Source of the DNA: Ruminococcus sp.
GTDB lineage: Bacteria; Bacillota; Clostridia; Oscillospirales; Ruminococcaceae
Assembly: GCA_017472145.1 (NCBI GenBank)
Contig: JAFUQX010000058.1
Span: 124,001 to 188,000, forward strand
DNA: 64,000 nt
Direction: 5' to 3'
The stretch's first letter is position 1, and every line of letters starts with the position of its first letter. Position numbers and translations under genes: made by a program. Positions 35,979 to 53,605 of the stretch are shown here, piece by piece. Under the pieces are notes generated by a model. That model saw only the letters and a program-made list of their open reading frames with translations. It searched no databases and was not told the DNA's origin.

Positions 35979-36473
35979 CTATAGCTTTTTCCGCATCTGA
36001 TACCATACAGTGCGCCCATGCTCAGAATCAGAAAGGCCTTCATTTTCAAATCCGAACTTCTCATAATAAGGAATCAGCTTCTCCTTACAAGTAAGTACCA
36101 ATCCTGCTCTCTTATTACTTTCAGCATCTTCAATGACTCTGTTCATCAGTATTGCAGCATATCCTTTTTTTTGATAATCAGGATGCGTTTCAACACCGAA
36201 AATCATCTGCCAGCTTCCATACTCATTATGCATACTCGCATCGTAATACATTTCGTCTCTCAGATCTGGTTCGTTGGTAACCATTCCATTTACCATACTG
36301 ATGATTTTCTCATCTGCTTCTAAAAGCCAGAAGTGATTTGCATATACCATCAGCCGATCCCCAAAAGTCTCTCTCGATGCGGCTTCTTCCTTAGGAAAAC
36401 ATAATTTTTCCAATTCCGCAATTCGATCCAAATCGGCTATTGACGCCTGTCTGATTCTATATTCTTTCATCAT
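35979..36473 (-). CDS. GNAT-family N-acetyltransferase
   Basis: A 164-residue acetyltransferase with the acetyl-CoA motif VETHPDYQKKGYAAILM and the C-terminal YYEKFGFENEG. The acceptor is unknown; the sequence resembles arylalkylamine-type GNATs. It is the last gene of the second sulfur/nitrogenase-like operon, starting with ATGATG that overlaps the previous stop. Its inclusion may mean it acts on an intermediate or product of the pathway, or may be passive. Confidence 0.82.
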   Translation of the reverse strand: MMKEYRIRQASIADLDRIAELEKLCFPKEEAASRETFGDRLMVYANHFWLLEADEKIISMVNGMVTNEPDLRDEMYYDASMHNEYGSWQMIFGVETHPDYQKKGYAAILMNRVIEDAESNKRAGLVLTCKEKLIPYYEKFGFENEGLSDSEHGRTVWYQMRKKL

Positions 36474-36880
36474 ACATCAAGAACTTCTGGTTCCTCGGTA
36501 AACGAATAAATAACCGCCTTTACATTATCCAAATACAAAGTATTGGTATTGCTTCCGCCTGCTTCATACATGTTCTTCAGATTCGGATACGCATCAAGCA
36601 TTGCCTGATGAACCTCCGTTCTGTTATCAGCCTTAAAAACACCGGATACCCGAATCCATCTGCCCGCTTTATCCATTGCAGATATTTCAAACTGCGGATT
36701 ACGGCCGATCTGTTTTGACACATCCTTCGTCTTTGAGGTCAGCACATATATTTTATTCTCATACAAAAGTGCTGTTCCGAATGGCCGTACTCTTGGACTG
36801 TCCTCATCGACCGTTGCAAGAAAATAAGTTCCTGCCTCCTTTAAAAAATCATGCAGCTTCTGCAAATCCCTTTGTGCCAT
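36470..36880 (-). CDS. Pyridoxamine-oxidase-like flavin/heme-type split-barrel protein
   Basis: A 136-residue split-barrel protein of the PNPOx-like class (FLATVDEDSPRVRPFGTALL, IYVLTSKTKDVSKQI, ISAMDKAGRWIRVSGVF). Such proteins bind FMN, F420 or heme and often reduce small molecules. It lies 15 bases after the NifK-like gene, so it belongs to the same transcript and could handle electrons or a side product. That is inference. Confidence 0.82.
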   Translation of the reverse strand: MAQRDLQKLHDFLKEAGTYFLATVDEDSPRVRPFGTALLYENKIYVLTSKTKDVSKQIGRNPQFEISAMDKAGRWIRVSGVFKADNRTEVHQAMLDAYPNLKNMYEAGGSNTNTLYLDNVKAVIYSFTEEPEVLDV

Positions 36881-36895
36881 AACGATTCCTCCTCA

Positions 36896-38185
36896 TTATA
36901 AATTATCATATAAGTCTTCTGTAAAGGTCAGACAGCCTCTGTAGCCTGCATATGTGCGATTAAACACCAGTCTTTCACTCATCGGGAATGACGCAAGAAT
37001 AAACTGCATGTCCTTCTCCAGAGCCACCTCACGCTCATTACTGCTTCCAATCAGCAAGGTAATTTCTCCCGGCTCATTGCACAGGGCCTGATTGATCTCA
37101 TATTGATCCGCTGTGAATACAACCCTCGGAGGAACGGCATATTCCAGATCATTAATCTGTGCTATAATACGTTCCTTATCTTCCGCACGAAAAATCGGTT
37201 CTGCTATAACTACCAGAACGGGCGTGAAGCTGAAGTCATTTGCCAAATACCTTGTAATTCCAACCGCAGTGCTTGCATCTGCTACAACAGCGAACCGTTT
37301 CCAGCTTACCACACCGATGGCCTGTGCAAAATAGCTGTATACATAATCTTCTTCTGCCTGAATTACCTTATCGACGATCGCCTTGTCCAGATGCAACGCC
37401 TCTGCCACCGTTCTTACAAACTTTGTTGTATCGGTAGCACCCACAAACAGCCCCGGTATTCTGACACTCGGAACGCCGAATTTTTCTTCAAATTTCTTTG
37501 CAGGACCTTTAAACAGCCATGGGTTTACGATAATATTCAATGCTGCGCCGGAGCATTTTTTTACATCAGCAATTCCTTGATGCTTTGTAAAAAATGTATT
37601 CACACGAAGGCCCAATTCAGATAATATCCGGTCAATTTCTTCCAGCGTTCCGCTCCAGAAAGGATCATGATAAGGAACGACTCCAAAGATATTTACAAGC
37701 TTCTCATCCTTTGGCACATTTTCCTCAATTACCTGATCGATCATAGTATTCCAGACAACCTCATATCCCAAATTGCTGTCCCCGGCAAAGCCCGGCGTTT
37801 CAATCGGATATACTTCATAGCCCTTAGCCTGAAATTCATCTGTAACGCTGACGATATCATCTCCGATGATGCCGGCGGTACAGCCTGTAAGTACAAAATA
37901 GGCATCTGCATCTATAATATCAAGCGCACCCTGAATCGTAGTACGCAGCTTATCTGTTCCGCCAAAGACAACTTCTTTCTCCAGCATATTGCTGGAAGGC
38001 AGGGATACGCTGCTGACAAAGCATGAATTTTTATGTCCCGACTGACCTTGCTCAGCAGCAGATGTCTGCATACAGCAGCCGGGGCCCGCATGGTAAATCG
38101 GGCAGACCTTATGCAGTGCTCCAAGAATCGAATTGATGCCTGCTAAAACGCAGCCGCCTCTGGGATTTTCCAATATCTGTGACAT
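36896..38185 (-). CDS. Nitrogenase-like beta subunit (NifK-type), pair 1
   Basis: A 429-residue protein of the nitrogenase component 1 superfamily. The three P-cluster-type cysteines are present at Cys12, Cys37 and Cys102 (GGCVLAG, HAGPGCC, TGCTAGIIGDD), with Cys12-Cys37 spacing equal to that of NifK Cys70-Cys95. The conserved VVFGGTDKL stretch follows. It is shorter than a typical NifK (over 500) because the N-terminal extension is absent, as in NifN and many nitrogenase-like enzymes. It starts 10 bases after its partner D subunit. Together they would form an alpha2-beta2 reductase reduced by the NifH-like protein. It is not assigned to N2 fixation because of its sulfur-gene context. Confidence 0.88.
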   Translation of the reverse strand: MSQILENPRGGCVLAGINSILGALHKVCPIYHAGPGCCMQTSAAEQGQSGHKNSCFVSSVSLPSSNMLEKEVVFGGTDKLRTTIQGALDIIDADAYFVLTGCTAGIIGDDIVSVTDEFQAKGYEVYPIETPGFAGDSNLGYEVVWNTMIDQVIEENVPKDEKLVNIFGVVPYHDPFWSGTLEEIDRILSELGLRVNTFFTKHQGIADVKKCSGAALNIIVNPWLFKGPAKKFEEKFGVPSVRIPGLFVGATDTTKFVRTVAEALHLDKAIVDKVIQAEEDYVYSYFAQAIGVVSWKRFAVVADASTAVGITRYLANDFSFTPVLVVIAEPIFRAEDKERIIAQINDLEYAVPPRVVFTADQYEINQALCNEPGEITLLIGSSNEREVALEKDMQFILASFPMSERLVFNRTYAGYRGCLTFTEDLYDNL

Positions 38186-38195
38186 ACCTTTTTCC

Positions 38196-39641
38196 TCACT
38201 TAATTATATATTTGAACGCATCTTCCTCATACCAGGATGCCTTATACGGCAGCTTCACATGCTGAGACAGTTTTACATTAAATCCGGGATTCTGAAGCTG
38301 ATCTGCAATCTTATTGCCTAGAAACAGCAAGCCATCATATCCCATCGTTGGTCTTTTGCCATCCAACACATGCGTGGTCGGTATTCCAAGCTTTGCGGCC
38401 CACTCCGGCACACCGATAAATGCGTCCGGCTTCAGCTTATTGATGAGATTTACCTGTTCAAAGGGCTGCATATTAGCAATATCCACGACATAGTCCTTAT
38501 GTATGCCATTCAGATATTCAATATCCACCTGCGCATCTTCATCGTAAGTCGGAGTTTCCAGTCCCACCAGCTCCATACCGAAATCATCAATGAGTGCAGC
38601 GGCTGCGAAGGATCGTCCGGTTCCTCCGCAGATAAATACTCTCTTGCCTTGCAGTCTCTCTCTAAGCTTTGCAACCAATGGTTCAATGCGCTGATGCTCT
38701 CTTGCAATTATTTCTTCAACCTCCTGCTCTTTTCCCAGAACCTTCGCAATGCCGCGGAACCACTTATCCGTATTCCGAATTCCGATGGGCATAACAGTGT
38801 GGGAATATGGAATCTCATAATCCTCCCACAGCGTCTTCATAAACTCATCTGCAAACACCTTGCAAATGGATGTAGAGGCCTCTGCTGCCGGGATTCTCTT
38901 GATTTTTTCCAGGGAACTATAAAATGGAATATAATTCACCTTCACACCGATCAGCGCAAGCATTCGCTCCATTTCCTTTTGATCTGCAAAGCTTATCGTA
39001 GTAGGTGCAAACAGATTCACAAGCCCCTTTTCCTTAGGAATACGCTCCTGCTTCAAAATGTATTTGTTAATAGACAGAAATGCCGCATCAAAGCCAGAGG
39101 CACAAATCTTCGACTTGAAGCCCTCACAATGAATAGGAACGATAACAGCATCCGGATATTCCTTCTGTAAATCTGACGCGATCGCATCAATATCGTCTCC
39201 GATGATTCCCGACGCACAGGACGCATAGATAAATATCAGCTTCGGATGATATCGCTCCACTGCCTTTTGCACAGAATCACGAAGCTTTTGCTCTCCGCCG
39301 AATACCACACTCTTTTGATCGATATTGGTCACAATGATTCTTGGGTTTTTGATGTTTTTGATTCCTCTGTGGGCCTGTCCTACACGATACATATCCACAG
39401 CCATAATGGAGCATCCCACACATCCCTGCGGAGAATGAGAAATAAACACAGAATCCTCCAAAGACATCAATGCTGCCATGCTATTGATCTGCTGACACTG
39501 CAGACCCTGTGCAAAGCTTCTGTCAGCCTTTTTGAGACATCCTTTTCTGAAATTCTCCTCGGCTTCTTTTCCGGTTGTTCCTAAATCGTTTATTCTGCCC
39601 GGTCTGCTCTCACGTACACCGGAATACTGTACTTTTGCCAT
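38196..39641 (-). CDS. Nitrogenase-like alpha subunit (NifD-type), pair 1
   Basis: A 481-residue alpha-type subunit. P-cluster-type cysteines lie at Cys49, Cys74 and Cys142 (GLQCQQ, SPQGCVGC, ASCASGIIGDD). The cofactor ligand equivalent to NifD Cys275 is Cys260 (TSICKVFADEF). The equivalent of His442 is His424, exactly the NifD distance from the shared GYDG motif. However, positions matching Gln191 and His195 in CEGFRGVSQSLGH are Cys180 and Phe184. So it appears able to hold a NifB-derived cofactor but not to run nitrogenase chemistry. It follows cysE by 49 bases. Of the two pairs in this window it is the better candidate for the catalytic one. Confidence 0.88.
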   Translation of the reverse strand: MAKVQYSGVRESRPGRINDLGTTGKEAEENFRKGCLKKADRSFAQGLQCQQINSMAALMSLEDSVFISHSPQGCVGCSIMAVDMYRVGQAHRGIKNIKNPRIIVTNIDQKSVVFGGEQKLRDSVQKAVERYHPKLIFIYASCASGIIGDDIDAIASDLQKEYPDAVIVPIHCEGFKSKICASGFDAAFLSINKYILKQERIPKEKGLVNLFAPTTISFADQKEMERMLALIGVKVNYIPFYSSLEKIKRIPAAEASTSICKVFADEFMKTLWEDYEIPYSHTVMPIGIRNTDKWFRGIAKVLGKEQEVEEIIAREHQRIEPLVAKLRERLQGKRVFICGGTGRSFAAAALIDDFGMELVGLETPTYDEDAQVDIEYLNGIHKDYVVDIANMQPFEQVNLINKLKPDAFIGVPEWAAKLGIPTTHVLDGKRPTMGYDGLLFLGNKIADQLQNPGFNVKLSQHVKLPYKASWYEEDAFKYIIK

Positions 39642-39690: not shown

Positions 39691-40584
39691 TCATTTTAAT
39701 TGAAGCTCCTGCTTCTTCACACTTACTCTTGTTCCCTTTGCAATTGACTTTGTGACAAAGGTATTGCCGCCTACCACCACATCTTCCTCAATCACCGTAT
39801 CTCCGCCTAAAATGGAAGAACCAGAGTAAATAGTAACACGATCCCCTATGGTGGGATGTCGTTTTATACCCTTCAGTTTCTGGCCACCCTTTGTAGATAA
39901 TCCGCCTAAAGTAACACCTTGGTATACCTTCACATGCTCCCCTATTACAGTTGTTTCTCCAATTACAATTCCAGTCCCATGATCCATGAAGAAATGCTTG
40001 CCAATAGAGGCTCCGGGATGAATGTCTATACCTGTAATGCTATGTGCATGCTCCGTCATAATTCGCGGAATCATTGGCACACCCAGCAAAAACAGTTCGT
40101 GAGCAATTCTATAAACGGAAATCGCATAAAGGCCTGGATAAGATAAAATCACTTCATCTTTACTGCCTGCAGCGGGATCTCCGTCATAAGCAGCCTGAAT
40201 ATCCGTTTCCAGATATTCTCTTATCTGCGGTATTTTTTCCATAAAGTCAAAAGTCATATTCTGCGCTTTTTCCTCTAAGGCCGAGTCTGATAAATCGGAA
40301 GAAGTGCAGCAATAACGCAGTACAATCATAACCTGCTTATTCAAGTGAAAAATAACATCCTCAATCGCAGCTGCCATATTATTCTTCACGCTGTATATCT
40401 TATAAACCTTATCGCTGTAATATCCCGGATATAGGATTTTCAGCAGCTTTTCCACAATATCAATGATTGCCTTTTTATCCGGCTGATTGTATAGATCCAT
40501 CTTATTGACAGCTCTTTCACCCTCATAATCCTGAAGTATTGTCTGAACAATGTGCTCTACTCTTTCTTCATCCAATTTGCTCAT
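39691..40584 (-). CDS. cysE: Serine O-acetyltransferase (CysE/EpsC type)
   Basis: A 297-residue acetyltransferase with an N-terminal helical domain and a C-terminal left-handed beta-helix. Typical elements are GIDIHPGASIGKHFFMDHGTGIVIGE, VYQGVTLGG and the KRHPTIGDRVTIYSG hexapeptide run. It makes O-acetylserine, the carbon acceptor for cysteine synthase. The N-terminal extension resembles the SAT/EpsC group. It sits between nifU and the NifD-like gene, four bases after nifU, so the sulfide acceptor and the reductase are made from one mRNA. Confidence 0.93.
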   Translation of the reverse strand: MSKLDEERVEHIVQTILQDYEGERAVNKMDLYNQPDKKAIIDIVEKLLKILYPGYYSDKVYKIYSVKNNMAAAIEDVIFHLNKQVMIVLRYCCTSSDLSDSALEEKAQNMTFDFMEKIPQIREYLETDIQAAYDGDPAAGSKDEVILSYPGLYAISVYRIAHELFLLGVPMIPRIMTEHAHSITGIDIHPGASIGKHFFMDHGTGIVIGETTVIGEHVKVYQGVTLGGLSTKGGQKLKGIKRHPTIGDRVTIYSGSSILGGDTVIEEDVVVGGNTFVTKSIAKGTRVSVKKQELQLK

Positions 40585-40587: not shown

Positions 40588-41025
40588 TTAATATCCCTCG
40601 CCTTCTGCTGTTTCTGAAACATCATTCACCGGCTTTTCCAGACCTTCAATGACAATATGTTTTTTTTCAGCATAGTCCCATAACGCTGCATGGATCGCTT
40701 CTTCCGCAAGCAAGGAACAATGTACTTTTACAGGCGGCAGGCCATCCAAAGCCTCCAGGACGACTTTATTGGTGACCTTCAATGCCTCCTGTATGGTTTT
40801 TCCTTTTACCAGCTCCGTAGCCATACTGCTCGCTGCAACTGCGGCCCCGCAGCCAAATGTCTTGAATTTCACCTCCCTTATAATGCTCTGTTCATCGATA
40901 TCCAAATACATACGCATGATATCGCCGCATCTTGCATTTCCAACCGTTCCAACGCCGCTTGGATTTTCAATTTCTCCCACATTTCGCGGATTGCTAAAGT
41001 GATCTATAACTTTTGCACTGTACAT
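40588..41025 (-). CDS. nifU: Fe-S cluster scaffold protein, NifU/IscU type
   Basis: A 145-residue IscU/NifU-N scaffold with three conserved cysteines in GNARCGD, KTFGCGAAVAASS and PVKVHCSLLAEE. It builds Fe-S clusters with the NifS desulfurase encoded just upstream. It has only the U-type domain, not the longer NifU with ferredoxin and Nfu domains. The operon position suggests supply of clusters to the nitrogenase-like proteins. Confidence 0.93.
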   Translation of the reverse strand: MYSAKVIDHFSNPRNVGEIENPSGVGTVGNARCGDIMRMYLDIDEQSIIREVKFKTFGCGAAVAASSMATELVKGKTIQEALKVTNKVVLEALDGLPPVKVHCSLLAEEAIHAALWDYAEKKHIVIEGLEKPVNDVSETAEGEGY

Positions 41026-41071: not shown

Positions 41072-42253
41072 TCACTTTTGATTTTTTACAAAATCCTCAT
41101 ATAATGGTGACATATTACGCAACTTGGTGATAATCTTCTTCAGCGAATCTACCACAAAATCAATATCCTCCAGAGTAGTATCTTCTGATAAAGTCAATCG
41201 CAAAGAACCATGTGCAACCTCATGAGGCAATCCGATCGCCAGAAGTACATGAGAAGGATCTAATGAGCCAGACGTGCAGGCCGAACCACTGGAAGCACAT
41301 ATTCCAATCTGATTCAACAGGATCAGAACCGATTCGCCTTCAATAAAACGGAAACAGAAATTCGCATTGTTCGGAAGTCTGTCTGTCCTATGGCCATTCA
41401 ATCTGGCGTATGGAATTTCCGACAGAACCCTATCTATCAAATGATCTCTTATCGCTGTTTCCTGCGCATTTCTTGTCTCCATTGTGTCCTTGGCGATCTG
41501 GGCCGCCTTGCCAAAACCAACAATTCCCGAAACATTAGAGGTTCCGGCCCTTCTGCTGCGTTCCTGTGCGCCGCCATGGATAAATGAACGGATTTTAACA
41601 CCATTACGGATATAAAGAATACCAATGCCCTTCGGGCCATTCAGCTTGTGTCCGCTGGCCGAAAGCATGTCGATATGCATTTTTTCTACATCAATCGGAA
41701 TATGTCCATAGGCCTGTACCGCATCTGTGTGAAACAGAATCCCATTTTCATGTGCAATTCTTCCGATTTCTGCAATGGGCTCAATCGTTCCGATTTCATT
41801 ATTTGCAGTCATTATAGAAATCAGAATTGTGTCCGGACGAATTGCCTTCTTTAATGCTTCAAGAGAAATTTTTCCGTCTTCATCTACATCAAGATAGGTT
41901 ACTTCACAGCCCAGCTTCTCCAGATATTCGCATGTATGCAGAATTGCGTGATGTTCGATTTTGCTGGTTATGATGTGCTTTCCTTTAGAAGCATATGCTT
42001 CTGCGGCTGCTTTTAACGCCCAGTTGTCAGATTCGCTTCCGCCGCCGGTAAAATAAATTTCTTCCGGATTTGCTCCGATCAGATCGGCCGCCTGCTTTCT
42101 TGCTGCATCAACAGCTCTCTTTCCCTCGCCTGCAAAATCATATATCGCAGAAGGATTACCGTATATCTCCCTGAAAAACGGAAGCATCTCATTTAAAACA
42201 GCCTCACTTACCTGTGTAGTTGCCGCATTGTCCAGATAAATCATCTTATTCAT
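41072..42253 (-). CDS. nifS: Cysteine desulfurase (NifS/IscS type)
   Basis: A 393-residue PLP enzyme with MIYLDNAATTQ at the N-terminus, the PLP lysine in SASGHKLNGPKG and the active-site cysteine in CASSGSACTSGSLDPSHVL. It releases sulfur from cysteine for cluster assembly by NifU. The start ATG overlaps the rrf2 stop (ATGA); a second ATG three codons later is an alternative. The arrangement rrf2-nifS-nifU is the classical Fe-S module. Confidence 0.95.
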   Translation of the reverse strand: MNKMIYLDNAATTQVSEAVLNEMLPFFREIYGNPSAIYDFAGEGKRAVDAARKQAADLIGANPEEIYFTGGGSESDNWALKAAAEAYASKGKHIITSKIEHHAILHTCEYLEKLGCEVTYLDVDEDGKISLEALKKAIRPDTILISIMTANNEIGTIEPIAEIGRIAHENGILFHTDAVQAYGHIPIDVEKMHIDMLSASGHKLNGPKGIGILYIRNGVKIRSFIHGGAQERSRRAGTSNVSGIVGFGKAAQIAKDTMETRNAQETAIRDHLIDRVLSEIPYARLNGHRTDRLPNNANFCFRFIEGESVLILLNQIGICASSGSACTSGSLDPSHVLLAIGLPHEVAHGSLRLTLSEDTTLEDIDFVVDSLKKIITKLRNMSPLYEDFVKNQK

Positions 42254-42714
42254 ATCCTCACTTTTTTCTCCTGACACTTTGCATTTTGATTGGACACCAT
42301 GATCTCCTCTTGCCAATCCATCAGATCATCCAGCGTAATTCCCTCAAGAGTATCATTGATTGCAGAATCTAACTTTTTCCATATACGATAGCTTACACAA
42401 GTCTCTCGATTTTCACAAGGAACTCCATCTTCGCTTACACACTCTGTCGGTGATATGCTGCCTTCTGTCGTCCTTAAAATTTGTTTGATCGTATATTGCT
42501 CTGGAGGATATTTAAGAAGATAGCCGCCGCAAGGGCCCTTGATACTTTTTACCAATGCAGCTTTGTGCAGGATCGAGACAATTTGCTCCAAATACTTGAC
42601 AGATATATTTTGTCTTTGCGCAATATCCTTGAGTTTTACTGGTTCCCCATCATTATGACATGCCAAGTCCATCATGAATTTGATTGCGTTTTTTCCTCTT
42701 GTTGATATCCTCAT
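42250..42714 (-). CDS. Rrf2-family regulator with IscR-like cysteines
   Basis: A 154-residue winged-helix regulator (MRISTRGKNAIKFMMDLA, QNISVKYLEQIVSILHKAAL, KGPCGGYLL). It has three cysteines spaced C-X7-C-X5-C near residues 93-107 (ECVSEDGVPC, RETC), similar to Fe-S-binding IscR/NsrR and unlike the cysteine regulator CymR. It probably senses Fe-S status and controls its own operon and perhaps the twin promoter at 53878. The start is the ATG preceded by GAGGAGG. An in-frame extension upstream overlaps the Cys-Cys leader peptide region and lacks a ribosome site. Confidence 0.88.
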   Translation of the reverse strand: MRISTRGKNAIKFMMDLACHNDGEPVKLKDIAQRQNISVKYLEQIVSILHKAALVKSIKGPCGGYLLKYPPEQYTIKQILRTTEGSISPTECVSEDGVPCENRETCVSYRIWKKLDSAINDTLEGITLDDLMDWQEEIMVSNQNAKCQEKKVRI

Positions 42715-42988: not shown

Positions 42989-43774
42989 CTAAATGTTATA
43001 TTCAATATCCTCAATGTCTCCGCCAAGATTGAGAATGTCAAGTATTTTAGAACGGTACAGCTGAAAAGTATCCTGTGCTCTAGCACGAGGCCTAGGCAGA
43101 TCGATATCAATGACAGCCTCCACCTTTGACGGCCGTGCGGACATAACCACAACCTTGTCAGACATATATATGGCTTCATCCACATCGTGCGTAACCATAA
43201 TCATAGTCATATTGTGTTTTTTCCATATTTCCAGAATCTCATCCTGCAGATTCATTCTTGTGAATGCATCCAATGCGCCCAGCGGCTCATCCAGTAACAG
43301 TACCTTTGGATGGCCAACCAACGCTCTGGCCAAAGACGCTCTCTGATTCATTCCGCCAGAGAGCTGGTGAGGATACGCCTTTTCAAATCCGTTCAATCCA
43401 ATCAGGTCGATAAAATCCTGAACATCTTTTTTAGTGCTTTTGTAGATATGTCTGGCCTTCAATCCAAAGGCTATATTCTTTTCAACTGTAAGCCATGGGA
43501 AAAGATTCGACCCCTGAAACGCAAATCCTCGATCACTTCCTGGTTTCAGTATTTTCTTGCCATCCAGAATGATCTCCCCGCTGCTCGGAGTATCCAATCC
43601 CCCAATCAGACGCAAAAGAGTTGACTTTCCGCATCCAGACGGGCCGATCAGGCTTATAAAGGATCCAGGTTCAATATCCAGGGAAAAATCATTCAAGGCC
43701 ACAATGCTTTCTTTAGAAACATCCTGGTTGGCGAATTCTTTTCTCACATTCCGAATCGATATCTGTCCTACCAT
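42989..43774 (-). CDS. ABC transporter ATP-binding protein (SsuB/TauB/NrtD type)
   Basis: A 261-residue ATPase with Walker A GPSGCGKST, signature QLSGGMNQRASLARAL, Walker B VLLLDEPLGALD and the phrase MTMIMVTHDVDEAIYMSDKV, characteristic of the nitrate/sulfonate/taurine importer group. The start is the ATG with AAAGGAG upstream; the frame is open further into the permease gene but that is overlap. It overlaps the permease by seven bases. Confidence 0.92.
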   Translation of the reverse strand: MVGQISIRNVRKEFANQDVSKESIVALNDFSLDIEPGSFISLIGPSGCGKSTLLRLIGGLDTPSSGEIILDGKKILKPGSDRGFAFQGSNLFPWLTVEKNIAFGLKARHIYKSTKKDVQDFIDLIGLNGFEKAYPHQLSGGMNQRASLARALVGHPKVLLLDEPLGALDAFTRMNLQDEILEIWKKHNMTMIMVTHDVDEAIYMSDKVVVMSARPSKVEAVIDIDLPRPRARAQDTFQLYRSKILDILNLGGDIEDIEYNI

Positions 43775-44727
43775 TTGATCACTCCTTTCTGCCATACCAG
43801 AACACGATCCCTTACCTTGAAAAGTAATGTCAAGATCAATGAGCACAATATTGCAATTATAATCAGTCCCGCATATACGCCATCGTACATCATAACCTGC
43901 TTCTGCCAGTTGATATACCAACCGATACCACTGGAATTTCCATTCATCTCCACTGCCATAAGTGTAGCAAATGACGATACTGTTCCATAAAATATACCCA
44001 GGAATATACTTGGCATAGCACTCGGAATAGCTACATGTATAATTTTATACAAAGTAGATGCGCCCAGCGTACTGGATACTTCAAAATGAACCTGACTGGT
44101 GCTTTGAATACCGCTGCTTGTCATGAGTGTAACCGGGAACCATACTGCAAAAGCAATTAAGAAGACATTGGCTGCATGTGTTGTCGGAAATACACTCAAG
44201 GCCAATGGAATCCACGCAGTTGTGGGAATCGGACCTATAATCTTTGTAACAGGATTCAGCCAATATCCGACTTTTTTATTATATCCGAGTGCTAGACCGG
44301 TGAGAAAACCAATTGATGCACCCCATGCAAAGCCTGTTATCAGCAGTCCCAATGAGGACAGTACGTTCTCCAAAAGAAACAGTCTCTGTTCATACAGCAA
44401 TCCGATAATCCGATCCAGAGACGGGAAATATAAAGTCGGCAGCAGCGTCGTTTTTGTAATAATAGTATTCAGAAACATAATAAAAGCGATCGTACCAGCC
44501 GCCAAGGGAGCTTTGTATACCAGCCTTTCCCTTATCTTTTTTACAAAAATCGATACAATTGCAAATAGAAGATACAGCGCCAAAACAATCAGCAGCAAAT
44601 AGACATAGTATGGGTGCTCTGTTGTCTTCTGTTTACCGCTGTCCTCCAATCCGTAATATGCTGCAACGGAAAGAAGAACAGCCAACACTGGCAATATAAG
44701 CTTTATCATAATAATGTATTTCTTCAT
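43768..44727 (-). CDS. ABC transporter permease (SsuC/TauC type)
   Basis: A 319-residue membrane protein. Three N-terminal segments (about 5-95) precede the BPD_transp_1 domain, whose EAA-like loop is GASTLYKIIHVAIPSAMPSI near residue 225. The remainder (TGFAWGASIGFLTGLALGYN, GPIPTTAWIPLALSVF) is typical of aliphatic sulfonate, taurine and nitrate importers. The extra N-terminal segments are less common in SsuC. Confidence 0.9.
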   Translation of the reverse strand: MKKYIIMIKLILPVLAVLLSVAAYYGLEDSGKQKTTEHPYYVYLLLIVLALYLLFAIVSIFVKKIRERLVYKAPLAAGTIAFIMFLNTIITKTTLLPTLYFPSLDRIIGLLYEQRLFLLENVLSSLGLLITGFAWGASIGFLTGLALGYNKKVGYWLNPVTKIIGPIPTTAWIPLALSVFPTTHAANVFLIAFAVWFPVTLMTSSGIQSTSQVHFEVSSTLGASTLYKIIHVAIPSAMPSIFLGIFYGTVSSFATLMAVEMNGNSSGIGWYINWQKQVMMYDGVYAGLIIIAILCSLILTLLFKVRDRVLVWQKGVIKW

Positions 44728-44778
44728 TTTCGCTCCTATCTTCGCTGTATGAGAGAGTATGTGGATCGATTCTGCATA

Positions 44779-45888
44779 TTACATCTCCTCAATCCAATCT
44801 TTCATCCACAGCAGAAAGTCATTTTTTTTACTCTCATCAATTGAAAAGGTACCGTCTTCATTATAAATGTAACTATCCGGAACGCCCTCAAATTCAACCG
44901 TATGTTCTGACGTGAATTCTTCGATATCCCGGCCTTCCTGCAGATCTCCGATCGCAAGCAAATCGGTGCATGCGTTTCGGAATGTTTCCTCCATTACGCT
45001 GACAGACGGCTGATAATTATAGGAAGCAAGAAGCTTTGCATTATTTTCCAGATCACCGGAGCACTGTTCATTTTCAATCTGAAGCTTGGCAGTATTCTCC
45101 GGCTCAGCCTGTACATAAGCAGACGCCTTCATCAATGCACGTGTATACGCTGCTGCTGCCTCCGGGTGCTCCGATGCTGCCGATGTTGTTACAAACGCTG
45201 CACAGCAATACTCATCCTTAAACTTTTCATCCTCTGTGAGATCTAAGATTTTTGTAAAGCCGTATTCTGCCTCTGCCGATGCTGCTACCGGATCATGCAG
45301 CGCAACAGCGTCTACTGCTCCATTGGCTAAGGCCAGCGGCAAATCGGTCAGATTATATACGACCAATTCGATTTCCATATTGTTTGTACTTACACCAATT
45401 CCAAGATCCGCAAGCTTTCTTTTCAGTGCCACTACTGAAGAATCGCTCATTCCAGGAACACCGATCTTTTTTCCCTTCAGGTCAGAAAGGTCATCAATGT
45501 CTGAATCTGCGGATACATAGTACTTTGTGCAGCCTGTGTGAAGTCCTGCCGTAAAAGTGATTTCGAGGCCGCTGTCCACCTGCGGAATCAGGCTTCCAGC
45601 CAGACCCACACATGCATCAATTTGTCCGGATGCAACCAGATCTGCTGTCTGCTGCATGTCGATTTCTACAAGCTCATACTGAATACCTGCATCATTGAAT
45701 TCTTCTTCAAAATAGCCATTATCCGCTGCAATATGTAACGGGGCCAGGCACAAAGAACCATTCGCAGTCCCGATTTTAAAGACATAAGCATCACCACTTT
45801 CCTTGCTGCTTCCGCAGCCGGTAAGAAAAAGCGTCAATGACAGTGTGAAGGCCAGAACAAAAGAAAATAATCTCTTTATATTTCTCAT
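44779..45888 (-). CDS. ABC transporter substrate-binding lipoprotein (SsuA/NMT1 type)
   Basis: A 369-residue lipoprotein with a signal peptide and lipobox LTGC near residue 25. The mature part is an NMT1/SsuA-like binding fold (FKIGTANGSLCLAPLHIAAD, MQQTADLVASGQIDACVGLA, LKGKKIGVPGMSDSSVVALK). This clade binds sulfonates, nitrate, taurine or pyrimidine precursors. Its place behind the nitrogenase-like operon suggests the ligand is the organosulfur substrate of the system; the ligand is not known. The ribosome site is GAAAGAGG. Confidence 0.9.
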   Translation of the reverse strand: MRNIKRLFSFVLAFTLSLTLFLTGCGSSKESGDAYVFKIGTANGSLCLAPLHIAADNGYFEEEFNDAGIQYELVEIDMQQTADLVASGQIDACVGLAGSLIPQVDSGLEITFTAGLHTGCTKYYVSADSDIDDLSDLKGKKIGVPGMSDSSVVALKRKLADLGIGVSTNNMEIELVVYNLTDLPLALANGAVDAVALHDPVAASAEAEYGFTKILDLTEDEKFKDEYCCAAFVTTSAASEHPEAAAAYTRALMKASAYVQAEPENTAKLQIENEQCSGDLENNAKLLASYNYQPSVSVMEETFRNACTDLLAIGDLQEGRDIEEFTSEHTVEFEGVPDSYIYNEDGTFSIDESKKNDFLLWMKDWIEEM

Positions 45889-46017: not shown

Positions 46018-46491
46018 CTATCCTCTAAGGGATTCGTGTTTGTCAATGCGGCTGTAATAGAATGTAATTTTATCAAGGGCCTCCTCTGCCGAGCAGCTGA
46101 CATCAAAGGCCGATATGGCTTTTCGCTCAAGCTGCTTCTGAATATGGAAACCGATCTTCTTACATACAACGCATCTGCAATCTGAAATAAGCATAACTTT
46201 GGATGATAGGTCACCCTGTCCGCTGCATCCGCCTCCAGCAGAGCTTCCGCAGCCTCCATGAGCACGGTCGCCGCATCCGCCGGATGAGCCGCATCTATTC
46301 AACAAGGCTGCTGTCTCATCCCGGATCTTATCCGGATGAAAGATTCTTTCTTCAGCCTGTCTGTATACACCATCTGTTACTTCATAAATAATGAAGCTCT
46401 TGGCTGATCCAAAGGTTTCATCAATCTGCTTTCCGTCAGAGGATGCAATTGCAATTTTATAAGACAAAGCTGCCGCCCCCATTAGTTCCAT
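46018..46491 (-). CDS. NifX/NafY-like cofactor-binding protein with Cys/Gly-rich insert
   Basis: About 149-157 residues of the dinitrogenase iron-molybdenum cofactor family: YKIAIASSDGKQIDETFGSA, FIIYEVTDGVYRQAEERIF and VMLISDCRCVVCKKIG. Residues about 86-113 form a Gly/Cys-rich insert with four cysteines (NRCGSSGGCGDRAHGGCGSS onward) not seen in the second NifX-like protein here. It could carry or insert an Fe-S cofactor. The start is uncertain: ATG 46491 overlaps the NifK-like gene, and a TTG at 46467 better fits the family N-terminus. Confidence 0.82.
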   Translation of the reverse strand: MELMGAAALSYKIAIASSDGKQIDETFGSAKSFIIYEVTDGVYRQAEERIFHPDKIRDETAALLNRCGSSGGCGDRAHGGCGSSAGGGCSGQGDLSSKVMLISDCRCVVCKKIGFHIQKQLERKAISAFDVSCSAEEALDKITFYYSRIDKHESLRG

Positions 46492-47780
46492 CTCTGAACA
46501 GCAACAGAATAAATGTCCTCAATCAGACGAATTCCGCCAGTATAGCCTACATAGAAATCATCCAGAACCACTTTATCCTGTACCGGCCAGGAAATGTTCA
46601 GATAATGTCCGAACATCTTTTCTGTAAGCTCTTTTTCATAATAGCTGCCAAGAATCAGCGGATACCCATGGTAATCATGCGCCTGGATCTCATTGTGGAT
46701 TTTATATCCGTCTGTTTCAAAGCGAACTTCTGCCTTCAGGCCATAATTCAGGTTCTCAAATTCTGCCCGGATCTGATCCTGAAACGCCTTTGGCGTATCA
46801 TCCGTTATAAACTGCTTTGCGGGCACAAGTCCCAGATCATTTACAAGGAACTTCGTAAGGCCAAGTGCGTACTGTGCATCTGCAACAACAGAAAACTGCT
46901 TGGCCATAACACGGGTTTCCAGGAACATATCCGCATACCGCTCTATCAAATAATAGTAATAGTTTTCATGCTCATTGATGATGCCTTCTATCTTCTGTTC
47001 ATCAACGCCTGCAAACTTACCCACTTCTCTGAGGAATTTGCTTGTTTCATAAGCACCGATCGGCAACGTAGGATAATGAAGATACGGAATCCCCAGCTTC
47101 TTCTCCATTTTCTTCATGTTGCCTACAGATACCCAAGGCGACACAAGCAGGTTAAATTCTGCCTTCGGAATGCGGTTGATATTCTCAATACCGCGCTGAT
47201 ATCCAAATATAGTATTCGGCGTCAGTCCAAGCTCTGCAATCAGCTTTTCCAGTTCTCTGATATTTCCAAGCCAAAATAAATCCTGATAAGGAACGTCGGC
47301 CCATATGTTCACCAGTCCCTTTTCCTTTTCATCAGACTTTTCCAGATACTGCTCAATAATTGCATCAATTACCTGCTCGTGGCCTTTATAATTATTCCCC
47401 TTAAAGCCTGCTGTGGAAGCGAAAATGACAGGCTTATCTGCATCCTCATATCGGCTGACGACCTCTCCCGTATCATCACCCACGATTTCCGGAATACAGC
47501 CGGTCAGTACCACATAAAGATCCGCATCGATCACCTTCAGCGCATTTTCGATGGTTGTATCCAGCTTTTTTACACCGCCGAATACTACGTCCTTCTCATT
47601 GATGCTGGTACAGGGAAAAATATTCGGTGAAAAATAGCCGCTGCTTCCGATGGAATCGGAAAGCTTCTGTGCACATCCGGGGCCAGAGTGCAGCACCGGA
47701 ATTGCTCGTGTGATGGCCTGTACTGTCTGCATGGCTCCCATTGCGCATTTGTATCTCTGTTTGTCCAGTAACTTCGCCAT
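46482..47780 (-). CDS. Nitrogenase-like beta subunit (NifK/NifN-type), pair 2
   Basis: A 432-residue component 1 homologue with P-cluster-type cysteines at Cys12, Cys36 and Cys95 (YKCAMGAM, HSGPGCAQ, TGCIPEIVGDD) and VVFGGVKKL. It is short like NifN. NifN of nitrogen fixers has lost most of these cysteines while this protein keeps all three, so an intact P-cluster-like site is possible. The stop and start overlap (TAATG) with the alpha-type partner upstream indicates coupled translation. Confidence 0.88.
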   Translation of the reverse strand: MAKLLDKQRYKCAMGAMQTVQAITRAIPVLHSGPGCAQKLSDSIGSSGYFSPNIFPCTSINEKDVVFGGVKKLDTTIENALKVIDADLYVVLTGCIPEIVGDDTGEVVSRYEDADKPVIFASTAGFKGNNYKGHEQVIDAIIEQYLEKSDEKEKGLVNIWADVPYQDLFWLGNIRELEKLIAELGLTPNTIFGYQRGIENINRIPKAEFNLLVSPWVSVGNMKKMEKKLGIPYLHYPTLPIGAYETSKFLREVGKFAGVDEQKIEGIINEHENYYYYLIERYADMFLETRVMAKQFSVVADAQYALGLTKFLVNDLGLVPAKQFITDDTPKAFQDQIRAEFENLNYGLKAEVRFETDGYKIHNEIQAHDYHGYPLILGSYYEKELTEKMFGHYLNISWPVQDKVVLDDFYVGYTGGIRLIEDIYSVAVQRWN

Positions 47781-49243
47781 TACTTCTTCGCCTCCTCTAA
47801 GAATTTGTCAACGTTCTGCTTATACCACCAATCTGTGTAAGGAAGCTTTACCCTTCTGGCCAGATTCTTCTCAAAGCTGCGGTTATGAATACTGTCCAAA
47901 ATGGACTGCGCAAATTCCAATGTATGCTTGTAGCCAAAGATCATGTATTCGTCTGCAACATATACAGCAGGTGTTCCGTTCTTGATCGCCCATACAGTAG
48001 AGCCGGGATGTCTTGACAGGTACAGATCCGGCTGATACTTGTTCAGAATATTCATCACTTCATAATTCTGCTGATCTGCCACACTGGCCTCAAAGTCTAC
48101 ATCATTTTCCAGCAGATATTCCATGGACGGCGGAACATCTCCGTTTTCGTATTTCTTGTCATAATGCCACGCAAGCGCCCATACGACTTCAATTCCAAGC
48201 TCGTTCAGGACTCTGGAAACCTCAAATGTATAACCGGGGCCCATACCAAGAACCGCCTTTAAGCCCTTTAATTCCTTTTTGATTGCTTCAATCTGCGGAA
48301 TATAAATCGCACGCTGCTCCTCAATATATTTTTCTACAGCCTCACTTCTGTCTGTAACTCTTCCGATTTCACGAAGCCATGTCTCAAATCCAGCAATACC
48401 AAGCGGATTGATGGTTCTGATATATGGAACGCCATATTTTTCCTCCAGACCGTTGCCAAGATAATTTCCCAGCGTTCCGCAGATACAGGTAGTAGCCAGT
48501 GATTCTGATATGTGACTTAATTCCTCAACTGTAGAATTACAATAGAGGAAAATCGGTTCCAGATCAAAGTTCTTAAAGATTTCTATAATCTCCGGTCTTG
48601 CACTCTCATAGAAATTCTTAAAGTTAATGGTGTTTCTCTTCTGCTTCGGCGGCTGTACAATACTGCTCAGTACGGCATGGTCCGAAATATCAAAACCAGT
48701 TGCCCAGATTCTTGACTTGAATCCTTCACAGTGTACGGCCACGATCGGCACATCTACTTCAGCTTTTACATCATCTACAACACTGTCGATATCTTCACCG
48801 ATAATACCTGTTGCACAGGAGCTTGTTACAAAGATCGCCTTCGGTGAATACCTTTCATTCACTTCGAGGATAATTTTTCTAAGTGCCTCGGCTGAACCAA
48901 AGATGGTATCCTTCTCATTCATATCGGTTCCGACATATACGGTGTTATTGGTTACACCGCGCTTTTTGGCCATTACCTTATCCAGATAATATGCCCCTGC
49001 GCTTGCGACAGAACAGCCTGCCGGGCCGTGATGAATGATTGCCACATCTCTGATGGCCGAAAGCTGACCTAACGCACAGCTTGATAAGCAGGTACTGGAC
49101 TGGGAAAAGCATCGTGAACATCCTTTTAAAGTACCGCAGCTGCTCTGACTGGCCAGATCACTGAGCGTACCAATGTAACCTGTAATCGAACCAATGCGGT
49201 TTTCTCTGGTCGCTACATTGGAGCTATCTAAATTGAATGCCAT
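47780..49243 (-). CDS. Nitrogenase-like alpha subunit (NifD/NifE-type), pair 2
   Basis: A 487-residue alpha-type subunit. P-cluster-type cysteines are Cys52, Cys77 and Cys143 (SSTCLSSC, HGPAGC, SSCATGIIGED). The cofactor cysteine is Cys253 or Cys255 (TTCICGTLG). The His442 position appears to be Tyr (AVYVADEYMIFGY). Counterparts of Gln191 and His195 are Trp180 and Phe184. Loss of the His ligand with retention of Cys is the pattern of the scaffold subunit NifE, so this pair may mature the cofactor for pair 1, or act on its own substrate. Extra cysteines at 36, 42 and 45 lie in an N-terminal extension. Confidence 0.88.
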   Translation of the reverse strand: MAFNLDSSNVATRENRIGSITGYIGTLSDLASQSSCGTLKGCSRCFSQSSTCLSSCALGQLSAIRDVAIIHHGPAGCSVASAGAYYLDKVMAKKRGVTNNTVYVGTDMNEKDTIFGSAEALRKIILEVNERYSPKAIFVTSSCATGIIGEDIDSVVDDVKAEVDVPIVAVHCEGFKSRIWATGFDISDHAVLSSIVQPPKQKRNTINFKNFYESARPEIIEIFKNFDLEPIFLYCNSTVEELSHISESLATTCICGTLGNYLGNGLEEKYGVPYIRTINPLGIAGFETWLREIGRVTDRSEAVEKYIEEQRAIYIPQIEAIKKELKGLKAVLGMGPGYTFEVSRVLNELGIEVVWALAWHYDKKYENGDVPPSMEYLLENDVDFEASVADQQNYEVMNILNKYQPDLYLSRHPGSTVWAIKNGTPAVYVADEYMIFGYKHTLEFAQSILDSIHNRSFEKNLARRVKLPYTDWWYKQNVDKFLEEAKK

Positions 49244-50253: not shown

Positions 50254-50269
50254 TTTTCTCATCCTCTCA

Positions 50270-51487
<1,218 letters not shown>

Positions 51488-51495
<8 letters not shown>

Positions 51496-52360
51496 GTGAA
51501 AACGTTTCCTTTACATTTATTTTTCTCTGATAAATCTGATCGCCGTATTCTGACTTTCCAGGCACACCGACTGCATCCGCACGACAATGCTGGCAGTGAC
51601 GGAAAACATCAATGTATTTTGAAGCCCTCATTCTTGCTTCATCAATCTGCGCACAAACCGGTGCTTTCTGATCGGCTAATTCATACTGGGGAATAAGCGG
51701 AATAATGTTATAGATACTGGCCCCGGCCTCCTTTACGGTTCTGGCTATTTCCTCAATATGCTCTCCGTTGATCTCCGGAACAAGAACCGTATTTACCTTG
51801 ATCGTTATTCCGGCACCGGAAATCTTCTGAATGCCCTTCAATTGATTTTCAATCAGAATTCGGGCTCCTTCCACGCCTTCATATCTTTTTCCATGATAAA
51901 TAATATATTTGTTCAGCTTTGCCTCTATTTCCGGATCTACCGCATTCACAGTTACTGTCAGTGAGTCGATCCCCACCTCAATCACTTCATCTGCTTTTTC
52001 ATAGAGCAGAAGCCCATTTGTACTCATACACTTGATAAGGCCCGGAAATCTTTCCTTCACCTTCCTGAATGTCTCCAAAGCATAATCTGTTGCAAGCGTA
52101 TCTCCCGGGCCAGCAATTCCTGCAACTGTTATTTCCGGGCAGATCCCCAAAGCCTTTTCCAGTATATCTATGCTTTCATCCGGCGTGATCACTTTGGAGG
52201 TAACACCTGGTCTGTCTTCCACATCATTTATGACTCTGTCACAGAATCTACAGGCAATATTACACCCCGGACTGACCGGCAAATGGATTCTTCCAACATT
52301 ATTCTTGTGCCCGCCAAAGCACGGATGAGAATTCTGCAATTCCTGATATGTATTGCTCAT
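51488..52360 (-). CDS. nifB: NifB-like radical SAM cofactor synthase
   Basis: A 290-residue radical SAM enzyme opening with HPCFGGHKNNVGRIHLPVSP and the CX3CX2C motif at Cys33, Cys37, Cys40 (CNIACRFC). It has AGPGDTLA and ends with the NifB-type FRHCQHCRADAVGVPG. NifB fuses two 4Fe-4S clusters with a carbide and sulfur to give NifB-co, the 8Fe core of nitrogenase cofactors. Its presence argues that the D/K-like proteins hold a complex cofactor rather than only cubane clusters. It precedes the NifX-like and nifH genes. Confidence 0.93.
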
Positions 52361-52415
52361 GCTGTTTCCCGCCTTCTTTCCCTATGAATTTGCACCATAT
52401 AATGCAGTAGACCAA

Positions 52416-52467
52416 ACAAAAAAGCCAGAGGTATTGTCACTGCGTCGCCTTAACAAAACCTCTGGTT
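52416..52467 (-). terminator. Terminator-like hairpin between yezD and nifB
   Basis: Minus-strand stem CCAGAGGT/ACCTCTGG with a 25-base loop, then CTTTTTTG. It would reduce transcription into nifB from the cysK promoter, separating cysteine synthase expression from the nitrogenase-like genes. A separate nifB promoter was not recognised in the 55 bases that follow. The 5' arm resembles the hairpin at 45946-45993. Confidence 0.75.
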
Positions 52468-52473
52468 TTCCAG

Positions 52474-52635
52474 TCAGTCTTTTAATCTGAATTTTTCTGT
52501 TTTATCGATCTGAATGACCTTCCCATCCTGCACAATGAGGGTAACACTCCCGTACTTCATGGTACTCAGCAGCTTTTTGAGAATTTCTAAATGTGAACGT
52601 TCCAGTGTCTGCTTATCGATACTTGCTTCACTCAT
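52474..52635 (-). CDS. YezD-like small protein (DUF2292)
   Basis: A 53-residue protein beginning MSEASIDKQTLERSHLEILK and containing KYGSVTLIVQDGKVIQIDKT, the pattern of the YezD/DUF2292 family found next to cysteine and sulfur assimilation genes in Firmicutes. The ATG is preceded by GGAGGTGAATGTGA. It lies 31 bases after cysK in the same transcript. The molecular role of the family is not known to me. Confidence 0.88.
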   Translation of the reverse strand: MSEASIDKQTLERSHLEILKKLLSTMKYGSVTLIVQDGKVIQIDKTEKFRLKD

Positions 52636-52666
52636 TCACATTCACCTCCGTTTCATTTCCAAACAA

Positions 52667-53605
52667 TTAATTGTTGCTGAACAGCGGTGTAGACAAATAT
52701 CTGTCACCGGAATCCGGAAGCAGTGCAACAATGGTTTTTCCTGCATTTTCCGGTCTGTTTGCGAGAATGGAGGCGGCCTTTAACGCTGCACCCGATGAAA
52801 TACCTACCAGAATACCTTCGGTTACTGCAAAGGTTCTGCCTTCTGCAAATGCATCATCATTCTCTACAGCAATAACCTCATCATAAATACCAGTGTTCAG
52901 TACATCCGGTACAAATCCTGCGCCAATTCCCTGAATCTTGTGCGGGCCGGATGTTCCTGCGGAGAGCACCGGACTTCCGGCCGGCTCTACTGCAACGATC
53001 TTTACATCCGGATTCTTTTCCTTCAGATACTCGCCAACGCCTGTGATCGTACCGCCTGTACCAACACCTGCAACGAAAATATCAACCTTTCCATCTGTCT
53101 GTTCCCAGATCTCAGGACCTGTTGTCGCCTTATGCACTGCGGGATTTGCCGGATTTACAAACTGACCCAGAATAACTGCACCATCAATTTCTTCCTTCAG
53201 CTCCTCGGCCTTTGCAATAGCCCCCTTCATACCCTTCGCACCTTCCGTCAGTACCAGCTCGGCGCCATAAGCCTTCAGGAGATTTCTTCTTTCCACGCTC
53301 ATTGTATCCGGCAGTGTAAGGATCGCCCTGTAGCCCTTCGCCGCTGCGACAGCTGCCAGGCCAATTCCGGTATTGCCGCTTGTAGGCTCAATAATTGTTG
53401 CACCCTCCTTTAAGAGACCTTTCTTTTCTGCATCCTCAATCATGGCCAGAGCAATACGATCCTTTACAGAACCAGCCGGATTCAGGTATTCCAGCTTTGC
53501 AAGAATAACAGCATTTGATATTCCCTTCTTTTTTGCATAGCCGTTCAGCTTCAGAATCGGTGTGCCTCCGATCAGCTCCAGTGCGCTTTCTTTGATCTTA
53601 CTCAT
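52667..53605 (-). CDS. cysK: Cysteine synthase (O-acetylserine sulfhydrylase)
   Basis: A 312-residue canonical CysK: PLP lysine in [17 protein letters not shown], substrate loop [42 protein letters not shown] and GISSGAAL. It joins sulfide to O-acetylserine. The start is the ATG with GGAGG 10 bases upstream; an upstream extension of five codons lacks a site. It is the first large gene behind the poly-Cys leader and attenuator, so its expression should rise when charged Cys-tRNA falls. Confidence 0.96.

Follow-up and report, generated by a model that had tools for sequence, protein, structure and literature searches.

A nitrogenase-like operon with an embedded cysteine synthase in Ruminococcus sp., a candidate organosulfur-reductase system of anaerobic gut-type bacteria

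Gene content of the locus

We analyzed a 64,000-nt window from the genome of Ruminococcus sp. (GCA_017472145.1, contig JAFUQX010000058.1, positions 124,001 to 188,000 of the forward strand), in which a series of 20 genes runs on the minus strand from 53605 down to 35979. The series contains two pairs of genes for nitrogenase-like component 1 proteins, here called pair A (D-A/K-A) and pair B (D-B/K-B), whose best solved relatives belong to the methylthio-alkane reductase Mar (MarBHDK) of Rhodospirillum rubrum, reportedly described by North in 2020 (Science). In the order 5' to 3' the genes are cysK1, a yezD-like open reading frame (ORF), nifB-like, nifX1, nifH, cysK2, D-A, K-A, nifX2, ssuA, ssuC, ssuB, rrf2, nifS, nifU, cysE, D-B, K-B, PNPOx-like and GNAT. 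The ORF list and translations showed every frame to be open and uninterrupted, and the genes that an earlier note, made from the letters alone, had named are indeed present in their place on this one strand. Intergenic gaps measure -13 to 129 bases (some starts being approximate), except for 277 bases before rrf2; from nifB through nifX2, with starts shifted to the nearest ATG, neighbours overlap or lie no more than ~16 bases apart.

Families were assigned with Pfam and NCBIfam profiles and their curated cut-offs. Pfam recognized four Oxidored_nitro proteins (235-279 bits) and Fer4_NifH (430 bits), as well as Nitro_FeMo-Co (nifX2), NifU_N and Rrf2. NifH and NifS exceed their NCBIfam cut-offs, and the nifB, cysE and SsuA-family matches fall short of theirs. 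D-A, K-A, D-B and K-B are the only Oxidored_nitro genes detected in the host genome, which is 94.3% complete. The genes at the 5' end of the series, with the evidence for each, are as follows.

52667..53605, minus strand: cysK1, cysteine synthase at the head of the operon (ORF, translation)
52474..52635, minus strand: small ORF of 53 amino acids, presumably yezD-like, a name kept from the earlier note with no family match behind it
51488..52360, minus strand: nifB-like radical SAM protein of 290 amino acids, without a NifX tail (TIGR01290, 271 bits, cut-off 343.65, model positions 8-279 of 441)
51124..51495, minus strand: nifX1, NifX-type, named by similarity and place, with relatives annotated as NifB/NifX family
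50270..51118, minus strand: nifH-type Fe protein (TIGR01287, 464 bits, above cut-off), the sole match at E 1e-40 in the genome
49255..50253, minus strand: cysK2, CysK-family paralogue between nifH and D-A (cysteine synthase family)
47780..49243, minus strand: D-A, alpha-type component 1 of the Mar superclade (best match, conserved ligands, tree)
46482..47780, minus strand: K-A, beta-type component 1 (best match, conserved cysteines)
46018..46491, minus strand: nifX2, NifX-type with a Gly/Cys-rich insert (PF02579, 48.9 bits)

A conserved unit with an embedded cysteine synthase

A scan of bacterial and archaeal genomes returned at least 581 relatives, from which the best 80 loci (D-A 80-97% identical) were fetched, so that the frequencies below describe the near clade only. 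These loci belong to Bacillota (63), Spirochaetota (9) and Bacteroidota (8), and 46 of the 80 titles carry a rumen or gut word or a bin code. Since D-A is shared at 80-97% identity and the gene order recurs, the operon is not a chance assembly. Orthologues were then counted by identity thresholds in the 51 loci where D-A has 5 kb or more of flanking sequence on either side. K-A was found in all 51, nifB and nifH in 45 each, nifX1 and nifX2 in 39 each, cysK1 (at 70% identity or more) in 36 and cysK2 in 33. Next came metC-like (23), yezD-like (21), malY-like (18), LysR (16) and GNAT (8) genes, while window-type ssuA (7), D-B (7), rrf2 (6), cysE (5), nifS (4), nifU (3) and PNPOx (2) were rarer. 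The conserved core is nifB-nifX-nifH-cysK-D-K-nifX; the importer, pair B and nifSU/cysE are accessory.

The 82 loci held 83 D-A entries, of which five stood at a contig edge and two came from a single broken copy (L027). In 63 of the 77 assessable loci the immediate 5' neighbour of D-A, read from the same strand, is a CysK-family gene, of the window type in 47 and of a second type in 16; this bears out the link to cysteine synthase drawn in the earlier note. Nothing was recognized before D-A in three loci; in two of these, L058 and L086, a spurious ORF on the opposite strand adjoined D-A although a CysK-like match lies just before it, and both were left out of the 63. The 77th locus is L027. 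The window-type cysK2 forms a subfamily of its own (support 99/97), and the cofactor-lysine column holds Lys in all 109 aligned CysK rows. The embedded cysteine synthase thus belongs to the core. Clostridial and archaeal nif operons carry PII-type nifI genes where cysK2 stands here, and by this analogy of place cysK2 might sense sulfur status besides making cysteine.

The second CysK-like type, 41-46% identical to cysK2, replaces it before D-A in L052 and 15 other loci, and the L052 copy has TSGNMG in place of TSGNTG. Two same-genus genomes hold interrupted copies, in nifB, nifH, cysK2 and D-A at L027 (G007) and in a D gene at L028 (G012); decay and assembly error are both possible.

The earlier note had set the system apart from Mar by the embedded cysK paralogue, the importer and the second pair. 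The paralogue stands as a core gene. The importer and the second pair do not serve, window-type ssuA and D-B each being found in 7/51 loci. Moreover, the isethionate reductase Isr of Rhodobacter capsulatus, a nitrogenase-like organosulfur system with SsuCAB, serine O-acetyltransferase and cysteine desulfurase, was already in print (PMC11423573). What sets the system apart is a dedicated gene of CysK type, placed between nifH and D, together with a NifH of classical type.

Pair A and its relation to Mar

The best solved-structure match of D-A is MarD (314 bits; NifD, 118) and that of K-A is MarK (381 bits; NifK, 88). D-A was also placed in a tree of 41 D proteins that included one characterized MarD and no Endomicrobium, Isr or Bch references, whereas K-A was placed by best match. 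In this tree, D-A and a homologue from Treponema saccharophilum form a 100/100 clade within a 98/95 superclade that contains R. rubrum MarD. The superclade also holds the strict Mar group (R. rubrum MarD, a Ruminiclostridium hungatei protein and a Bacteroidales protein) and two further groups; the D-A clade is sister to the strict Mar clade, not inside it. NifD, NifE, VnfD and AnfD form a separate 100/99 clade.

MarD binds an [Fe8S9C] cluster through Cys270 and His429, the latter beside Arg428 on a MarD-specific loop (PMC12552129). Arg-His, the cofactor Cys, three P-cluster Cys, Trp195, Phe199 and His375 (MarD numbering) are kept in 16/16 superclade rows. Across 82 D-A rows, C52, C77, C143, C255, W180, F184, H360, R411 and H412 are each at least 97% conserved; C255 is the equivalent of Cys270, and R411-H412 of Arg428-His429. 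K-A C12, C36 and C95 complete the six P-cluster cysteines of the pair. Judged from these sequences, pair A belongs to the Mar superclade and is a close relative of MarDK. On the nitrogenase alpha profile TIGR01862 (cut-off 486 bits), D-A scores 164 bits and D-B 175. By tree and profile score, neither pair is a nitrogenase, and the earlier view that neither is NifDK or NifEN is upheld.

Pair B and other second pairs

The best solved relatives of pair B are again MarD (243 bits; next a nitrogenase alpha chain, 124) and MarK (246 bits; next a NifE chain, 91). In the 41-protein tree, however, D-B makes up a 100/100 clade by itself, and the group-IV backbone around it is unresolved. The P-cluster cysteines are kept (D-B C49, C74 and C142; K-B C12, C37 and C102), as is the cofactor Cys (D-B C260). 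The Arg-His loop is missing, Cys stands at the Trp195 position and Thr at the His375 position. D-B His424 is conserved in 17 rows of one alignment and invariant in 12 rows of another. A single duplicated clade of D-A and D-B was rejected (p-AU 0.017). Of the questions raised by the earlier note, kinship to Mar is upheld for pair A, and a common clade of both pairs is not supported.

For whole-genome counts we used 38 D-A genomes (G000, G001, G007 and 35 hand-picked from the 80 loci, mostly on longer contigs). A D-B orthologue occurs in 21 of them and was not found in 17. Among 391 genomes sampled from the class, D-B orthologues occur in three, all of which also carry a D-A orthologue (present in 7/391; p 3.5e-6); statistics on this sample ignore kinship.

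Fe protein and gut nifH genes

The best solved relative of the nifH product is nitrogenase iron protein 1cp2 (474 bits), compared with 289 bits for MarH (9fmg Fe protein). The H tree has a separate 100/98 clade made up of one Isr-like H protein and four from loci of the D124 or D-A type. Clades are mixed in Fe-protein type: L154, a D124-type locus, has the NifH type, and L148, with a D-A homologue of 54% identity, has the other. A swap of Fe proteins between clades seems to have taken place.

A search at E 1e-40 gave exactly one match to NifH in 32 of the 38 D-A genomes, and in a 33rd (G007) one gene lies in two pieces. Nitrogenase alpha exceeded its cut-off in only two, R. hungatei and Konateibacter massiliensis, and in none of the other 36; in five Butyrivibrio genomes (G085, G086, G087, G091 and G092) NifH was matched once each and no nitrogenase alpha passed the cut-off. 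Butyrivibrio hungatei NK4A153 and Lachnobacterium bovis DSM 14045 are culturable D-A hosts in which nitrogenase alpha was not shown. In the host genome no NifE or NifN was found, and none of its four Oxidored_nitro genes comes near the NifE or NifN cut-off.

Cluster III nifH of Lachnospira, Butyrivibrio, related Clostridiales and Ruminococcaceae relatives has been proposed to mark candidate human-gut diazotrophs; NifD of three strains lacks a histidine that others keep, and the authors saw no reason to exclude fixation (PMC4995403). A screen by NifH reported nitrogenases in 23% of 501 genomes from the rumen, and their expression in sheep was low (PMC6776011). Nitrogen fixation was suggested for Clostridium indolis from 22 nitrogenase-related genes, nifN not being identified (PMC4149025). 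Because D-A bacteria carry a classical-type NifH, often as their sole NifH match, in genomes without nitrogenase alpha, nifH surveys likely score them as nitrogen fixers. The acetylene assay may mislead too, given that acetylene is reduced by Mar (PMC12552129). Surveys of the gut and rumen have probably included genes like these among their nitrogen-fixation genes, and published counts of nitrogen fixers there may partly rest on the D-A sulfur system, a suggestion that we extend to strains outside the genomes examined.

Sulfur context and accessory genes

Siroheme sulfite reductase occurs in six of the 38 D-A genomes, and none was shown in 32, including the host. CysH/CysD-family matches above 100 bits were found in 9/38, the host not among them. 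Where sulfite reductase is missing, as in most D-A genomes, released sulfite would be a dead end; because this holds for the host and 31 others, sulfide is favoured over sulfite as the product. By hand count, cysK is absent before D-A in 3/6 genomes with sulfite reductase versus 1/32 without (p 0.009, with the broken copy L027 scored as having cysK and kinship ignored), which is only a hint that its absence is commoner in sulfite-reductase genomes. The binding protein SsuA gave no clue to the substrate, its best solved relative (21.5 bits) being unusable. The rest of the series consists of the following genes.

44779..45888, minus strand: ssuA-like substrate-binding lipoprotein (TIGR01728 SsuA_fam, 82 bits, cut-off 163.5)
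43768..44727, minus strand: ssuC-like permease (translation and place; an orthologue adjoins ssuA and ssuB in other loci)
42989..43795, minus strand: ssuB-like ATPase, start approximate (ABC ATPase families, best 25 all below curated cut-offs)
42250..42714, minus strand: Rrf2-family regulator (PF02082, 129 bits)
41072..42253, minus strand: nifS, cysteine desulfurase (TIGR03402, 598.7 bits, above cut-off)
40588..41025, minus strand: nifU, N-terminal-type scaffold (PF01592, 161.6 bits)
39691..40584, minus strand: cysE-type serine O-acetyltransferase (TIGR01172, 163.5 bits, cut-off 210.65; SATase_N above its cut-off)
38196..39641, minus strand: D-B, second alpha-type component 1, own group-IV clade (best match, tree)
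36896..38185, minus strand: K-B, beta-type partner of D-B (best match, conserved cysteines)
36470..36880, minus strand: PNPOx-like small flavin-fold protein (ORF; named by eye)
35979..36473, minus strand: GNAT acetyltransferase (ORF; named by eye)

A homologue of the GNAT protein (190 bits) is annotated as GNAT beside the T. saccharophilum D/K pair. Directly upstream of cysK1, at 53963-57257 on the same strand, lie malY-like, metB/metC-like and LysR genes; these, the Rrf2 regulator and the terminal PNPOx-like and GNAT genes add to the inventory of the earlier note. Since malY, metC and lysR relatives recur beside D-A, the sulfur regulon extends beyond 35979..53605. Farther upstream on the same strand, 57517-58545 encodes another sulfur-handling protein, a fusion, named by eye, of rhodanese with a TtcA/ThiI-like ATPase domain. 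Just beyond the 3' end, 33850-35769 encodes a secreted protein in which a dockerin-like segment and repeats resembling sialidase were recognized by eye, which fits a fibre- or mucin-degrading Ruminococcus-type host. No known RNA, riboswitches included, reached its gathering score in 28000-64000.

Relatives in other genomes

Ruminiclostridium hungatei DSM 14427 (L122-L130) holds D-A, D-B, strict Mar (L123), D124-type (L124), Isr-like (L126, so called by residues only) and D122 (L122) sets, together with Mo-, V- and Fe-nitrogenase alpha genes, and is a natural test bed for the superfamily. On Treponema saccharophilum plasmid pTS2 (L142:3386-22382), a 60% D-A homologue and a second Mar-type pair flank an ABC importer, with nifX, nifH, cysK, radical SAM and O-acetylhomoserine sulfhydrylase-type genes and an adjoining type I-C CRISPR locus. 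A second pair, Ssu-type genes, nifH, D-A and cysK are found together again in L146 and L148. In L148 (13727-18937), D-A, the D122 pair and ssuABC are followed by a corrinoid protein, two corrinoid methyltransferase homologues and a corrinoid activase (by eye), and published mlp clusters are likewise linked to MarHDK-like genes. D124-type Mar relatives in L153, L154 and L155 adjoin a methionine-type ABC importer (by eye), and L154 and L155 have a metC and CysK-like pair reminiscent of reverse transsulfuration. The names MetN, MetQ, TcyJ, corrinoid protein, GNAT and PNPOx were given by eye.

Proposed function

On balance, we consider it probable that the operon encodes an assimilatory organosulfur reductase, and no nitrogenase, of anaerobic gut-type bacteria. 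NifB, the NifX proteins and NifS/NifU, by homology, would build and carry an [Fe8S9C]-type cofactor, and NifH would deliver ATP-driven electrons via the P-cluster to this cofactor in D-A, where the conserved Cys255 and His412 would hold it as in MarD. D-A/K-A would then reductively cleave a C-S bond in an organosulfur compound brought in by the accessory importer. CysE would supply O-acetylserine, on which CysK1 and CysK2 would trap the freed sulfide, or possibly a small thiol, and MetB/MalY-type neighbours could pass sulfur on to methionine. D-B/K-B would serve as an optional further reductase, relying on the NifB and NifH of pair A and probably acting on a different or preceding substrate. 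We infer the substrate and product of D-A/K-A from the gene content, ligands, clade and linkage read in the sequences. If correct, the D-A clade, which is spread over three phyla with many rumen and gut carriers and tied to its own cysteine synthase, would be a distinct branch of nitrogenase-like sulfur enzymes.

Several observations weigh against this proposal. The product freed by characterized Mar is methanethiol instead of sulfide, and the enzyme supplies the synthesis of methionine, not of cysteine. D-A has Ile at the position of MarD His194 and Gly, Ala or Ser at that of Cys73, so its substrate may differ; His194 is also missing from some other rows of the superclade. In an H tree built without MarH itself, the Fe protein falls in with NifH, VnfH and AnfH (97/97), and in 10 of the 77 assessable loci nifH directly precedes D-A without a cysK. 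As window-type ssuA is confined to 7/51 loci, the importer does not define the substrate. Sulfite reductase occurs in 97/391 genomes of the class and in 2/7 D-A orthologue genomes, so its absence is common in the class; its loss as a mark of D-A hosts was rejected on these counts. Finally, the D-A genomes include incomplete metagenome bins, and absences from them are weak.

Other readings of the locus assign the two pairs different work. One has D-B/K-B, or a D122-type analogue, split an imported sulfonate or thioether to sulfite or methanethiol, which D-A/K-A would reduce to sulfide, replacing siroheme sulfite reductase, or, from methanethiol, with release of methane. Pairs without Arg-His (D-B or D122 type) occur in nine of the 391 class genomes, and seven of these nine hold a D-A-family gene (at least 46% identical; 12/391 genomes), compared with 0/10 genomes that, grouped by score, have only more distant matches (p 1e-10 and 0.005). 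Ssu-type importer genes adjoin such a pair in the window, L139, L146 and L148, and sulfite reductase was not shown in most D-A genomes. (In T. saccharophilum L142, the importer genes adjoin a second pair of the Arg-His type.) However, 17/38 D-A genomes show no D-B orthologue, two of the nine second-pair genomes show no D-A-family match (one of them is 73% complete), 6/38 D-A genomes have a sulfite reductase as well, the D-A active site is of the thioether-cleaving Mar type, and the statistics disregard kinship; we regard such a relay as doubtful. Slightly more doubtful is its full form in gut anaerobes, in which the optional pair next to the Ssu importer would free sulfite or methanethiol, D-A/K-A with classical NifH would make sulfide that CysK2 captures at once, siroheme sulfite reductase would be replaced, and much rumen and human-gut 'Cluster III nifH' would be this sulfur enzyme. 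Were it true with methanethiol as the intermediate, non-archaeal bacteria would be releasing methane.

Pair B could instead be a NifEN-like scaffold that matures the cofactor for D-A/K-A, a role suggested for linked group-IV gene pairs (PMC3464626). D-B keeps the P-cluster cysteines and the cofactor Cys without the Arg-His ligand of Mar, and D-B in L138-L141 showed neither nifH nor nifB next to it. This is nonetheless improbable, as the 17 D-A genomes without D-B would lack the scaffold, D-B does not group with NifE (174 bits, cut-off 505), and MarDK was purified in active form with MarB alone besides MarHDK of the mar genes, from a host described in the cited passage only as without nifD and anfHDGK among structural genes (PMC12552129). 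A supply of metal or Fe-S cofactors or redox balance through H2 release, with the sulfur genes merely providing cysteine for cluster assembly, would suit the nifS, nifU and cysE genes of the window and the H2 made by Mar in vitro (PMC12552129). It is slightly more improbable still: nifS and nifU occur in 4/51 and 3/51 loci, whereas a CysK-type gene is core, and the active-site residues are retained as in Mar. We give very little credence to a divergent N2-fixing nitrogenase, the kind of enzyme suggested for gut bacteria with Cluster III nifH and for group-IV enzymes of Endomicrobium. The NifH is of the nitrogenase type, fixation was not excluded for Lachnospira and Butyrivibrio relatives, and Endomicrobium proavitum, without that NifD histidine, is cited as fixing 15N2 (PMC4995403). 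Against this, the Gln191 and His195 positions hold Trp and Phe in D-A and Cys and Phe in D-B, and Mar with the same ligands did not reduce N2 (equivalences and assay, PMC12552129). Furthermore, no NifE, NifN or other component 1 was found in the host, and neither D protein comes near any nitrogenase cut-off; the tree was built without the Endomicrobium protein.

Comparison with known systems

The operon proposed here to be an organosulfur reductase is most like Mar (PMC12552129), with which it shares a NifB-type partner, MarD and MarK as nearest solved relatives of D-A and K-A, the P-cluster cysteines and all equivalents of Cys270, Arg428-His429, Trp195, Phe199 and His375. It differs from Mar in its separate 100/100 clade, in the residues at His194 and Cys73, in its nitrogenase-type NifH, and in its internal CysK-type gene, two NifX proteins and optional second D/K pair. 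That second pair falls outside the Mar superclade, with the cofactor Cys kept and Arg-His not. With Isr (IsrBHDK and SsuCAB; PMC11423573) the window shares nitrogenase-like organosulfur assimilation and an Ssu-type importer (ssuABC-like genes at 42989-45888), and the induced Isr locus has serine acetyltransferase, cysteine desulfurase and rhodanese genes, as does the window region. IsrD, however, lacks the equivalents of Cys62, Cys154 and Cys275, all of which D-A and D-B keep, and on this pattern Isr membership was rejected for both. IsrB is not NifB-like and the Isr product is sulfite, whereas here the nifB product resembles NifB and the host showed no sulfite reductase. Mo-nitrogenase (NifHDK/NifEN) has the same fold family, Fe protein type, P-cluster cysteines and NifB and NifX parts. 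True NifDK/NifEN identity was nevertheless rejected by scores below cut-offs, by the separate clade and by the host showing only four Oxidored_nitro genes, with no NifE/NifN found; D-A also lacks equivalents of His442 and of Gln191/His195.

A general link to cysteine and methionine synthesis is likewise in print for group-IV NflDK adjoining O-acetylhomoserine sulfhydrylase or cysteine synthase (PMC3464626; Pillotina, PMC13067680; mlp clusters, PMC10418091). Cys275-type group-IV proteins were linked to cysteine synthase as early as 2012 (PMC3464626), and MarHDK-like genes are located near mlp clusters (PMC10418091). Mar, Isr with SsuCAB, the group-IV/cysteine-synthase link and the mlp neighbourhood are thus already known. 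The cited passages of these three articles are without the clade, ligand analysis, dedicated CysK subfamily or gut nifH link given here, and the D-A clade was not named in the open-access literature searched, subscription journals and preprints outside PMC not being covered. As far as the open-access literature searched shows, the D-A clade, its ligand set, its dedicated CysK subfamily, the classical NifH and the link to gut nifH are new.

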